From Liolophura sinensis (Eukaryota; Mollusca; Polyplacophora; Chitonida; Chitonidae), in NCBI RefSeq assembly GCF_032854445.1, contig NC_088295.1, positions 64,275,249 to 64,339,248 on the forward strand: a stretch of 64,000 nucleotides of DNA, written 5' to 3'. Each line of letters begins with the position of its first letter. Positions within the stretch are counted from its first letter, which is position 1. This document shows positions 56,251 through 64,000 of the stretch, in pieces. The notes below the pieces were generated by a model, which had not been told where the DNA came from, searched no databases, and was given only the letters and a program-made list of their open reading frames with translations. A program made the position numbers and the translations under genes.

Positions 56251-56534
56251 ACCTGATCCAACGGGTCACACGCCCTTCACCAAACAGTAACCACTGGCCA
56301 AACTCAAGCTCTGTAAGCAGGACAGTTCACCAAAAAATCGGTTTCAAAAACAAGCGTTGTTGTTGCACAAATGTGTAAACAGCAGACAATAACCGACACG
56401 TCCGTTCACTTCGGCGTCTAGCACACTCTCCTCCCACTTCCATAGTCAGTAGTACAAAAAGCGAGATGCCGCTGCCTCGTTAAAATTGGATCAATATATA
56501 TAAAAGCAAATAACACCTGTTCAAAAAGAAATTT

Positions 56535-56606
56535 TGACCCCGACGTGATCCGAACACGCAACCTTCTGATTTGGAGTCAGACGCGATAACATTACGCCAC
56601 GGAGTC
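56535..56606 (-). pseudogene. tRNA-Trp copy 1, degenerate
   Basis: The CCA anticodon is kept, but there are changes in the D-arm (CGATAACATTACGCC on the + strand against CGCTACCATTGCGCC in intact copies), the anticodon loop (CTCCAAA) and the T-loop (TTCGGAT). First copy after LINE remnant 2. Probably not functional. Confidence 0.85.
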
Positions 56607-57288
56607 TGTCTGACATGCAATTCTTATCTTTCTGTCAACTCCGGAAACAACTGAGACACGCAGTGTTGTAGGGAATCCAGTACACAGCCCGACATTTTAC
56701 ACTGTTAATATTGTGATGAAGACATCGCTGTCCAAACATGTGTTGGAACTATGGGTGTATATCTTTGGTCGCCAGTCAGCAAACCTTTGATTCTTGGCAT
56801 GTACTTGGTGGCAATGTCAATTTACATGGACATAGGACAACCTGAAATGATGGTGGGATATCAAAGCATATACAGGTGGAAATAAAGTATTTAAATAATA
56901 GCTCTTGCAGTCTATCAGAAAGTTAGCATTAAATGAGTTTTACCCAAAGATTTAAAGTTTGCTTTGATCAGTTAAGTGACGCAAAAAAATAATTATGCAA
57001 TCAAACAACCAGTTTTGCAAGTCGCATAAACAAAATTAAAATGTTTCTGTTAAATATTTTGTCCGTCCCCACTAACTAAGATGTAACGTGCAACACATGT
57101 TCGTGTATTCAACCTTTCTAATGGAATAACTTTAAAACTGATCCTGTAATGATCTGAAATTAGAGACGGAATTCGGACATCTACCATTTCCATAGTCAGT
57201 AGCACAAAAAAACGAGATGCTGCAGCCTGGTGAAAATTGGATCAATATATATAAAAGCAAAAAAAAAACACCCATTGAATGGTAATTT

Positions 57289-57360
57289 TGACCCCGACGT
57301 GATTCGAATACGAAAACTTCTGATCTGGAGTCAGACATGCCACCATTGCGCCAAGGAGAC
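57289..57360 (-). pseudogene. tRNA-Trp copy 2, degenerate B-box type
   Basis: The anticodon arm with CCA is perfect, but the acceptor strand GTCTCCT gives two mispairs with CGGGGTC, the D-stem is broken (GCGC/GCAT) and the T-stem has two mispairs (TCGTA/CACGT). It shares these changes with copy 4. Confidence 0.88.
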
Positions 57361-58069
57361 TGTCTGACATACAATTCTTATCTTTCTGTCAACTCCGGAA
57401 ACAACTGAGACACGCAGTGTTCTTGGTAATCCAGCACACAGCCCGACATTTTACACTGAATCCAACGTTAATATTGTGATGAAGACATTGCTGTCCAAAC
57501 ATGTGTTAGAACTGTGGGTGTATATCTTTGGTAAGAATCAATCGGCAGTCAGCAAATCTTTGAATCTTGGCATGCACTTGGAGGCAATGTCAATTTACAT
57601 GGACATAGGACAAACTGAAATGATGGTGTGATATCAAAGCATATACAGTTGGAAATAAGTATTTAAATAATAGCTATTGCAATCTATCATAAATTGTGGC
57701 ATTCCAAATGGGTTTTACCCAAACGATTACAGTTTGCTTTGATCAGTTAAATGACGCAACAAGATGATCATGCAATCAAATTACCAGTTTTGCAAGTCGC
57801 ATTAACAAATTAAAACATTTCTGTTAAATATATTTGTCGCCCTCCCTCCCCCCACCCGCCCCAGTAAGCTGTAACGCGCATCACATGTTCGTGTGTTCAA
57901 TCTTTCCAATGGAATAGCCTAAAAATGATCCTGTAATGATCTAAAATTAGAGACGGTATTCGGACATCTACCATTTCCATAGTCAGTAGCACAAAAAGCG
58001 AGATGCCGCTGCCTCGTTAAATTGATCAATATATATAAAAGCAAATAACACCTGTTCAAAAAGAAATTT

Positions 58070-58141
58070 TGACCCCGACGTGATTCGAACACGCAACCTT
58101 CTGATCTGGAGTCAAACGCGCTACCATTGCGCCACGGAGTC
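58070..58141 (-). tRNA. tRNA-Trp(CCA) copy 3
   Basis: As the intact copies except one change in the anticodon stem (TTTGA instead of TCTGA), which turns a C-G pair into a T-G wobble. Still foldable with full A and B boxes and a TTTCTTTTT terminator downstream. Confidence 0.9.
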
Positions 58142-58831
58142 TGTCTGACATGCAATTCTAATCTTTCTCTCAACTCCGGAAACAACTGAGACACGCAGTG
58201 TTCTTGGTAATCCAGCACACAGCCCGACATTTTACACTGGATCCAGCGTTAATATTGTGGTGAAGACATCGCTGTCCAAACATGTGTTGGAACTGTGGGT
58301 GTATATCTTTGGTCGCCAGTCAGCAAACCTTTGATTCTTGGCATGTACTTGGTGGCAATGTCAATTTACATGGACATAGGGACAACCTGAAATGATGGTG
58401 GGATATCAAAGCATATACAGGTGGAAATAAAGTATTTAAATAATAGCTCTTGCAGTCTATCAGAAAGTTAGCATTAAATGAGTTTTACCCAAAGATTTCA
58501 AGTTTGCTTTGATCAGTTAAGTGACGCAAAAAATAATTATGCAATCAAACAACCATTTTTGCAAGTCGCATAAACAAAATTAAAATGTTTCTGTTAAATA
58601 TTTTGTCCGTCCCCACTAACTAAGATGTAACGTGCAACACATGTTCGTGTATTCAACCTTTCTAATGGAATAACTTTAAAACTGATCTGTAATGATCTGA
58701 AATTAGAGGCGGAATTCGGACATCTACCATTTCCATAGTCAGTAGCACAAAAAAACGAGATGCTGCAGCCTGGTGAAAATTGGATCAATATATATAAAAG
58801 CAAAAAAAAAACACCCATTGAATGGTAATTT

Positions 58832-58903
58832 TGACCCCGACGTGATTCGAATACGAAAACTTCTGATCTGGAGTCAGACATGCCACCATTGCGCCAAGGA
58901 GAC
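58832..58903 (-). pseudogene. tRNA-Trp copy 4, degenerate
   Basis: Identical in kind to copy 2: intact anticodon arm, broken acceptor, D and T stems. Confidence 0.88.
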
Positions 58904-61206: not shown

Positions 61207-61922
61207 TGTCCGACATGCAATTCTAATCTTTCTGTCAACTCCGGAAACAACTGAGACACGCAGTGTTCTTGGTAATCCAGCACACAGCCCGACATTTTAC
61301 ACTGAATTCAACGTTAATATTGTGATGAAGACATTGCTGTCCAAACATATGTTAGAACTGTGGGTGTATATCTTTGGTAAGAATCAATCGGCAGTCAGCA
61401 AATCTTTGAATCTTGGCATGCACTTGGAGGCAATGTTAATTTACATGGACATAGGACAAACTGAAATGATGGTGTGATATCAAAGCATATACAGTTGGAA
61501 ATAAGTATTTATATAATAGCTATTGCAATCTATCATAAATGTGGCATTCCAAATGGGTTTTACCCAAACGATTACAGTTTGCTTTGATCAGTTAAATGAC
61601 GCAACAAGATCATGCAATCAAACTACCAGTTTTGCAAGTCGCATTAACAAAATTAAAACGTTTCTGTTAAATATTTTGTCGCCCTCCCCCCCCCCCCCCC
61701 CCACCCGCCCCAGTAAGCTGTAACGCGCATCACATGTTCGTGTGTTCAATCTTTCCAATGGAATAGCCTAAAAATGATCCTGTAATAATCTAAAATTAGA
61801 GACGGTATTCGGACATCTACCATTTCCATAGTCAGTACCACAAAAAGCGAGATGCCGCTGCCTCGTTAAAATGGGATCAATATATATATAAAAGCAAATA
61901 ACACCTGTTCAAAAATAAATTT

Positions 61923-61994
61923 TGACCCCGACGTGATTCGAACACGCAACCTTCTGATCTGGAGTCAGACGCGCTACCATTGCGCCACGGAGTC
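61923..61994 (-). tRNA. tRNA-Trp(CCA) copy 8, intact
   Basis: Same 72-base sequence as copy 6. The downstream terminator reads TTTATTTTT rather than TTTCTTTTT. Confidence 0.96.
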
Positions 61995-62683
61995 TGTCTG
62001 ACATGCAATTCTAATCTTTCTGTCAACTCCGGAAACAACTGAGACACGCAGTGTTGTTGGTAATCCAGCACACAGCCCGACATTTTACACTGGATCCAGC
62101 GTTAATATTGTGGTGAAGACATCGCTGTCCAAACATGTGTTGGAACTGTGGGTGTATATCTTTGGTCGCAATCAGCAAACCTTTGATTCTTCACATGTAC
62201 TTGGTGGCAATGTCAATTTACATCGACATAGGACAACCTGAAATGATGGTGGGATATCAAAGCATATACAGGTGGAAATAAAGTATTTAAATAATAGCTC
62301 TTGCAGTCTATCAGAAAGTTAGCATTAAATGGGTTTTACCCTAAGATTTAAAGTTTGCTTTGATTAGTTAAATGACGCAAAAAATAATTATGCAATCAAA
62401 CAACCATTTTTGCAAGTCGCATAAACAAAATTAAAATGTTTCTGTTAAATATTTTGTCCGTCCCCACTAACTAAGATGTAACGTGCAACGCATGTTCGTG
62501 TATTCAATCTTTCCAATGGAATAACTTAAAAAAATGATCCTATAATGATCTGAAATTAAAGACGGTATTCGGACATCTACCATTTCCATAGTCAGTAGCA
62601 CAAAAAGCGAGATGCCGCTGCCTCGTTAAAATTGGATCAATATATATAAAAGCAAAAAAAAAACACCCATTGAATGGTAATTT

Positions 62684-62755
62684 TGACCCCGACGTGATTC
62701 GAACACGAAAACTTCTGATCTGGAATCAGACATGCCACCATTGCGCCAAGGAGAC
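62684..62755 (-). pseudogene. tRNA-Trp copy 9, degenerate
   Basis: Acceptor and D-stem are broken as in copies 2 and 4. The T-arm is nearer the intact form (TTCGTGTTCGAATCACG), and the anticodon loop starts TTCCAGA. Confidence 0.87.
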
Positions 62756-63470
62756 TGTCTGACATACAATTCTTATCTTTCTGTCAACTCCGGAAACAAC
62801 TGAGACACGCAGTGTTCTTGGTAATCCAGCACACAGCCCGACATTTTACACTGAATCCAACGTTAATATTGTGATGAAGACATTGCTGTCCAAACATGTG
62901 TTAGAACTGTGGGTGTACATCTTTGGTAAGAATCAATCGGCAGTCAGCAAATCTTTGAATCTTGGCATGCACTTGGTGGCAATGTTAATTTACATGGACA
63001 TAGGACAAACTGAAATGATGGTGTGATATCAAAGCATATACAGTTGGAAATAAGTATTTAAATAATAGCTATTGCAATCTATCATAAATGTGGCATTCCA
63101 AATGGGTTTTACCCAAACGATTACAGTTTGCTTTGATCAGTTAAATGACGCAACAATATGATCATGCAATCAAACTACCAGTTTTGCAAGTCGCATTAAC
63201 AAAATTAAAACGTTTCTGTTAAATATTTTGTCGCCCTCCCCCCCCCCCCCCCACCCGCCCCAGTAAGCTGTAACGCGCATCACATGTTCGTGTGTTCAAT
63301 CTTTCCAATGGAATAGCCTAAAAATGATCCTGTAATAATCTAAAATTGGAGACGGTATTCGGACATCTACCATTTCCATAGTCAGTACCACAAAAAGCGA
63401 GATGCCGCTGCCTCGTTAAAATTGGATCAATATATATAAAAGCAAATAACACCTGTTCAAAAAGAAATTT

Positions 63471-63542
63471 TGACCCCGACGTGATTCGAACACGCAACCT
63501 TCTGATCTGGAGTCAGACGCGCTACCATTGCGCCACGGAGTC
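63471..63542 (-). tRNA. tRNA-Trp(CCA) copy 10, intact
   Basis: Same 72-base sequence as copies 6-8, last copy before the window ends. Confidence 0.96.
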
Positions 63543-64000
63543 TGTCTGACATGCAATTCTAATCTTTCTGTCAACTCTGGAAACAACTGAGACACGCAGT
63601 GTTGTAGGGAATTTAGTACACAGTCTTACATTTTACACTGGATCCAGCGTTAATATTGTGGTGAAGACATCGCTGTCCAAACATGTGTTGGAACTGTGGG
63701 TGTATATCTTTGGTCGCCAGTCAGCAAACCTTTGATTCTTCGCATGTACTTGGTGGCAATGTCAATTTACATCGACATAGGACAACCTGAAATGATGGTG
63801 GGATATCAAAGCATATACAGTTGGAAATAAAGTATTTAAATAATAGCTCTTGCAGTCTATCAGAAAGTTAGCATTAAATGGGTTTTACCCAAAGATTTAA
63901 AGTTTGCTTTGATCAGTTAAATGAGGCAAAAAAATAATTATGCAATCAAACAACCATTTTTGCAAGTCGCATAAACAAAATTAAAATGTTTCTGTTAAAT

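Follow-up and report, generated by a model that had tools for sequence, protein, structure and literature searches.

A tandem tRNA-Trp array of alternating intact and decayed units in the chiton Liolophura sinensis

The window analysed here is a stretch of 64,000 nucleotides from the Liolophura sinensis genome (assembly GCF_032854445.1, 609 Mb; contig NC_088295.1, here C1, forward-strand positions 64,275,249 to 64,339,248), and its right end is occupied by a tandem series of transfer RNA (tRNA) copies for tryptophan. We consider it probable that this is a real, old and still-exchanging tRNA-Trp array, homogenised by unequal exchange and with selection acting on the intact copies of its core. 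The true repeat is a dimer of ~1.55 kb, in which A units, each bearing an intact tRNA, alternate with B units, where the tRNA is decayed. Coordinates above 64000 extend the window numbering, position p being C1:64275248+p.

Between 56535 and 63542, ARAGORN predicted ten minus-strand tRNA-Trp(CCA) copies, and at 42774 one lone copy on the plus strand. The successive distances between the ten are 754, 781, 762, 761, 784, 758, 788, 761 and 787 bp. Four copies (60377, 61135, 61923 and 63471) are mutually identical; 58070 carries one substitution, 56535 five, and 57289, 58832, 59593 and 62684 six to eight. Eight of the ten pass the Rfam tRNA model at its gathering score, with 57289 and 58832 falling below. 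An earlier note, made from the letters of the window, had described ten same-strand copies 754-788 bp apart, four of them identical, and this is confirmed. The units can be aligned with one another across most of their length and stand head to tail at even spacing, for which chance is no sensible rival. The array within the window consists of the following features:

56431..64000, minus strand: tandem array, window portion; monomers of 754-788 bp in A+B dimers of ~1.55 kb
56535..56606, minus strand: tRNA-Trp copy of the A type in the left edge unit; five substitutions, D stem with 3/4 pairs
57289..57360, minus strand: tRNA-Trp pseudogene of the B type; eight substitutions, acceptor stem 5/7, D stem 3/4 and T stem 3/5 pairs
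58070..58141, minus strand: tRNA-Trp gene of the A type; one substitution, which leaves a wobble pair
58832..58903, minus strand: tRNA-Trp pseudogene of the B type; eight substitutions, unit spacer an A/B chimera
59593..59664, minus strand: tRNA-Trp pseudogene, B-type mosaic; six substitutions
60377..60448, minus strand: intact tRNA-Trp gene of the A type, core sequence
61135..61206, minus strand: intact tRNA-Trp gene, A sequence, upstream spacer of the B type; the two unit types have exchanged sequence here
61923..61994, minus strand: intact tRNA-Trp gene of the A type, core sequence
62684..62755, minus strand: tRNA-Trp pseudogene of the B type; eight substitutions
63471..63542, minus strand: intact tRNA-Trp gene of the A type, core sequence

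The dimeric structure is evident from the spacers, which were aligned for the 20 units left of an assembly gap, 11 of them (62684-70416) forming the core. In the core, spacer divergence at unit lags 1 to 6 was 12.37, 2.09, 12.36, 2.16, 12.35 and 0.97%; over all 20 units it was 11.29, 3.65, 10.61 and 4.57% at lags 1 to 4. Divergence amounts to 0-6% within the A or within the B type (one chimera excepted) and to ~9-13% between types. The chimera, unit 58832, lies ~7-10% from A and from B, and unit 61135 joins an A tRNA to a B upstream spacer; such mixtures are what unequal exchange or conversion would produce. No base differs between units 65017 and 68103 (0.0% over the whole unit), so that exchange in the core is recent. 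Together with the decayed B copies and an array-wide marker base described below, these divergences uphold the proposal of the earlier note that alike spacers and pseudogene units reflect concerted evolution of the kind seen in ribosomal DNA.

The A copies look like selected genes and the B copies like pseudogenes, because interior A tRNAs are invariant and the core A copy is fully paired, and B tRNAs diverge at about the rate of the spacer and have lost pairing. In seven interior A units, 0 of 72 tRNA sites vary, compared with 59 of 685 spacer sites (Fisher p = 0.004), and all 614 overlapping 72-bp spacer windows from these units contain at least one variable site. Every stem pair forms in a core A copy. 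The B copy at 57289 retains 5/7, 3/4, 5/5 and 3/5 stem pairs, and the newer B form (65779) gives no cloverleaf by minimum energy. The B consensus differs from the A tRNA at 9/72 sites in the multiple alignment or 6/70 in a pairwise one, and the A and B spacers differ at 80/683; the tRNA divergence is indistinguishable from that of the spacer (p = 0.85 and 0.55, respectively), so that B as a whole bears no sign of constraint. Taken singly, the decayed B copies carry 6-8 substitutions each, and as many as three gaps. A run of at least four T, the terminator pattern of RNA polymerase III (pol III), lies within 45 bases downstream at 21 of 21 places left of the gap, beginning at base 8 after A copies and at base 10-21 after B copies.

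Several points weigh against the reading as an active array with selection on its core copies. The contrast between tRNA and spacer is gone when all ten A units are counted (6/72 versus 68/682, p = 0.84), the six tRNA changes sitting in the edge units 56535 and 58070 and the edge unit 71196 having two length changes. The interior subset, in which alone the contrast appears, was picked by us. The units are also recently related, so that their variable sites cannot be counted as independent and the p values overstate significance. Finally, the intact copies may not be expressed at all, a state reported for clustered tRNA genes of Arabidopsis (PMC10701932).

Two further contrasts were considered and dropped. 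A faster evolution of the B tRNA than of its spacer was suggested by a first count (17/72 versus 52/704 over all nine units, p = 6e-5), in which the alignment had mishandled a one-base deletion; a pairwise recount gave 13/72 (p = 0.006), and omitting 61135 lowered this to 10/72 (p = 0.057), omitting 59593 as well to 9/72 (p = 0.080). No support for constraint was drawn from the stretch of the older tail of the array at 93339, where comparison with A gave 22/135 differences in the tRNA and 256/1006 in the spacer (p = 0.019), and comparison with B gave 27/129 and 183/871 (p = 1.0). Tail positions 88705-89629 showed no difference between tRNA and spacer divergence (p = 0.28 against A, 0.11 against B). 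A hidden spacer RNA was rejected, as Rfam, searched permissively over 1.7 kb, returned the tRNAs and weak matches far under their gathering scores. On informal inspection, the open reading frames of the spacer cross the tRNA or vary between unit types.

As the earlier note anticipated, the array runs off the window: tRNA places continue up to 77005, and an older tail, past a mobile element, reaches 94731. Counted by position, the array has 28 places: 21 precede a gap of 200 N (73340-73539), five follow it and two lie in the tail; two of the 28 (71957 and 76947) are shortened by an insertion. No unit of the continuous run lacks tRNA sequence, and exact core copies number eight before the gap and two after. 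The sequence right of the gap (74411-78320) is 99.1% identical to that on the left (69414-73336), and the duplicated flanks share ~1.3 kb of one inserted element at the identical site (99.4%). The flanks thus seem to be two haplotypes joined end to end, likely a false haplotype duplication, and the five copies right of the gap are therefore probably mostly allelic. Because of this 99.1% repeat, the raw copy count overstates that of one haplotype. The first stretch right of the gap, 73540-74402, finds its best match at 67031-67892 (99.5%), and so the haplotypes may differ in unit order too. The last A copy is exact in the right contig (76189), and in the left contig (71196) it has an extra A and lacks one base at the anticodon; either the alleles differ here or the sequencing is at fault.

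A genome search with the core tRNA, all 34 candidates of which were scored, returned 34 matches. Ten are exact, every one inside the array. Six differ by one base, namely array copy 58070 and five dispersed copies (C1:62278590, C1:62280441, C1:62284576, C1:64318022, which is the window copy at 42774, and C12:12269675). The remainder are more diverged array copies and C1:62268967, a tRNA-Cys by ARAGORN. The dispersed genes are mutually identical, and their 72 bases equal the core copy except for one D-loop base, which is T in 28/28 array and tail places and C in 5/5 dispersed copies. The single T/C difference from the 42774 copy, noticed in the window by the earlier note, thus extends to the whole array, and the comparison with other tRNA-Trp loci that it had suggested finds only C-type genes. 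We read this marker base as a signature of concerted evolution. With the post-gap copies left out, there are 13 exact intact tRNA-Trp genes, eight in the array and five dispersed.

The dispersed copies match an array unit over only ~73-89 bases, and the 42774 copy resembles the array only to ~9 bases beyond the gene. Two genome searches with spacer-containing queries placed the spacer, among the matches listed, at the array locus only (15/15 spacer matches listed in the second); both searches were incomplete, the window's own units being missing from the matches listed. Separately, three dispersed-type tRNA-Trp genes within ~6 kb at C1:62276001-62286000 share an upstream stretch and appear to be a small duplication of their own. 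The lone copy of the window is as follows:

42774..42846, plus strand: lone tRNA-Trp gene, D-loop base of the dispersed type (C)

The array is old and was once longer, since diverged remnants of it lie at 50149-50492 and 53004-53430, and a tail at 88702-94731 has 72-91% identity to the array spacer. The features left of the array in the window are:

50149..50492, minus strand: older array spacer remnant, 71-75% identity
53004..53430, minus strand: detached array spacer remnant, 84-86% identity
53431..56430, minus strand: fragment of a non-LTR (long terminal repeat) retrotransposon between array remnants, no functional part of the array

This fragment matches an endonuclease and the start of a reverse transcriptase. 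The right border is an element of ~11.7 kb (77006-88704; C1:64352254-64363952) inserted inside a B tRNA copy. It is flanked by ATTGC on one side and ATTAC on the other, which we read as a 5-base target repeat. Its protein matches, all of them below curated cut-offs, are to a retroviral-type integrase (31.9 bits, cut-off 32.6), endonuclease VII, DNA polymerase B, an A32-like ATPase and a capsid protein; together with its terminal inverted repeats they suggest a Polinton-like element. Its terminal repeats differ from each other at 14/161 sites. The adjoining tail differs from the core by ~7-8% (11-14% in one 123-base piece), a comparison in which the A and B rows are not separate tests, as each target stretch spans both types. 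These divergences fit a tail that was cut off from the core by the insertion of this element. Dada transposons, the first candidates, were discarded because of the integrase and polymerase matches. The insertion into a B tRNA copy had also suggested that the element targets tRNA genes. A genome search with the terminal repeat (40 of 409 candidates scored, 42 matches listed) found at least 12 loci, three of them at the array; neither ARAGORN nor Rfam detected a tRNA in the ~3.2 kb covered at each of the other nine, and this idea was given up. Likewise, the available part of a study of polinton-like viruses in cryptophytes reports no tRNA genes beside their insertion sites (PMC12220804). Within the tail, at 89600-89850, partial units that open with just the initial portion of the tRNA recur with a period of ~168 bp as a second-level repeat. 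Elsewhere in the window, a weak match to a retroviral-type integrase (46754-47125; 20.5 bits, cut-off 32.6) is probably a remnant of an LTR retrotransposon.

It is unlikely that the array is silent, its intact copies lying in inactive chromatin while the dispersed copies supply the cell and recent homogenisation accounts for their identity. The silent clustered genes reported for A. thaliana (in the part of PMC10701932 available), the existence of five dispersed intact copies and the complete identity of some unit pairs (65017 and 68103) favour such a state; against it, interior A tRNAs are invariant where their spacers vary at 59/685 sites and contain no invariant window, and the B copies beside them have decayed. 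Selection may instead act on the A+B dimer itself, A producing tRNA-Trp and B, which has lost the ability to fold as a tRNA, serving as a promoter-only pol III/TFIIIC spacer or insulator site. We consider this a poor prospect; it is raised because the promoter-box bases of B seem spared, all B copies left of the gap retain their downstream T run, and a tRNA-Thr/Arg array described below is dimeric as well. Only one of the 13 changed positions in B falls in the 22 box bases, compared with 4.0 expected (P = 0.043, a weak post hoc result with box limits taken from recall); in edge and tail A copies 5/14 changes fall in the boxes (P = 0.79). The same retained boxes would favour a structural or boundary element, in which the tRNA sequences organise chromatin as TFIIIC/pol III sites and the tRNA product is secondary. 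A human tRNA repeat at 1q23.3 has been proposed as a boundary, in the part of the paper available (PMC4041453). Given that the box signal is weak and post hoc, and that the A-B divergence of the whole tRNA is not detectably below that of the spacer, this function is highly improbable.

Among the suggestions of the earlier note was a satellite that captured a tRNA gene, to which a mobile element such as a tRNA-derived short interspersed element (SINE) gone tandem may be added; regular spacing and a higher-order dimer do resemble satellites. A satellite is a non-genic unit, often present at several sites, and a tRNA-derived SINE a dispersed retroposed head and body; here every unit of the continuous run contains tRNA sequence, the interior A tRNAs are conserved, and the spacer was found, among the matches listed in two incomplete searches, at this locus only (15/15 in the second). 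Such an origin is scarcely credible, and the suggestion found no support. The earlier note had also worried about an assembly artefact, and the gap inside the array, with its right side repeating the left at 99.1%, is a reason to do so. For the array as a whole the probability of an artefact is negligible: pairwise differences among the 20 units before the gap range over 0-13%, a chimera and decayed edge units occur among them, the array stands on both gap contigs, and remnants up to 25-30% diverged flank it on both sides. The worry stands for the copies right of the gap, which look falsely duplicated.

For the exchanging, partly selected array that we favour, the following course can be proposed. 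A single tRNA gene, duplicated locally together with its flanking DNA, would have founded a tandem nuclear tRNA-Trp(CCA) array, which unequal crossing-over and gene conversion would then have amplified and homogenised as a two-unit A+B block. Each intact A copy would be transcribed singly by pol III via its internal A and B promoter boxes, its transcript terminating in the T run that begins 8 bases past the gene. Selection would keep the core A copies intact, the B copies would ride along near the spacer rate, and the edge units would decay. The structure, the dimer, the divergence pattern, the T runs and the further arrays of the genome are observed, and transcription of the array, a role in tRNA dosage and crossing-over as the mechanism are what we infer from the sequence.

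The earlier note had called a tandem tRNA array unexpected. That holds less in this genome, where the tRNA-Trp array is not special, being one of several. A tRNA family search (63 of 76,031 candidates scored, 58 matches listed, so that array counts are lower bounds) gave tRNA runs on C10, C1, C9 and C12 among the matches listed, and the retrieved parts of these four contain at least four further tandem arrays, two for Thr, one for Arg and one for Thr/Arg. The C10 array (C10:35308001-35316000) has 10 tRNA-Thr in 8 kb, mostly ~660 bp apart; the C1 array has six tRNA-Thr in the retrieved part; and the C9 array has six tRNA-Arg(TCG) 721-736 bp apart. In the C12 array (C12:24448501-24455000), five Thr(CGT) and five Arg(TCT) form opposed pairs in tandem. 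Its 2.8-kb dimers are 98.5% alike compared with ~95.5% for single units, and the pair-to-pair distance alternates; dimeric repeats thus occur in two arrays. A separate observation concerns the C10 array, where the anticodons AGT, TGT and GGT are mixed on near-identical bodies in units ~90% alike, apparently by anticodon switching inside a homogenised array.

Comparable systems are known, and the cited papers are used here for the parts that were available. Outside Entamoeba, tandem arrays of tRNA genes have been described as unusual, and few cases come from animals; Hydractinia has them for all 20 amino acids and Nematostella has some (PMC11067881). The L. sinensis array shares with these the tandem layout and the arraying of several isotypes in one genome, and also shows even head-to-tail spacing, alike spacers and intact cloverleafs; it differs in its intact/decayed dimer and in that at least five arrays are found here, compared with all 20 amino acids in Hydractinia (PMC11067881). 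The human 1q23.3 repeat is likewise a macrosatellite-like tandem tRNA repeat, with units 98% alike, but these are 7.3 kb long and hold five tRNA genes and a CTCF site (PMC4041453), compared with one tRNA in ~0.76 kb here. Oocyte-specific tRNA genes of Xenopus are also tandemly arrayed, and are active in early development (PMC11500080). The tRNA-Cys cluster of Arabidopsis (~0.4 kb units, 84-94% alike) is similar in its single isotype, variable copy number, edge pseudogene and putative transposons; it differs as a plant cluster of four to six units, reported to be silent or weakly expressed, and the available account describes no alternating pseudogene (PMC10701932). Entamoeba also has tandem tRNA arrays, but nearly all of its tRNA genes are arrayed, with short tandem repeats between them (PMC2652664). 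Arrays of tRNA genes occur in Drosophila (PMC7919458), and tRNA clustering varies widely among eukaryotes, some clusters having interspersed pseudogenes (PMC2888827). In titles and abstract openings, with few subscription papers among them, no tandem tRNA-Trp array with alternating pseudogene units was named.

The kind of array reported here is thus already known, if uncommon, and what sets this one apart is its dimer of alternating live and dead units. L. sinensis becomes one more animal with at least five tandem tRNA arrays, and the D-loop marker base lets the expression of array copies be measured apart from that of the dispersed genes. With intact and broken copies alternating and the edges decaying, the tRNA-Trp array is a natural test of the interplay between selection and homogenisation.

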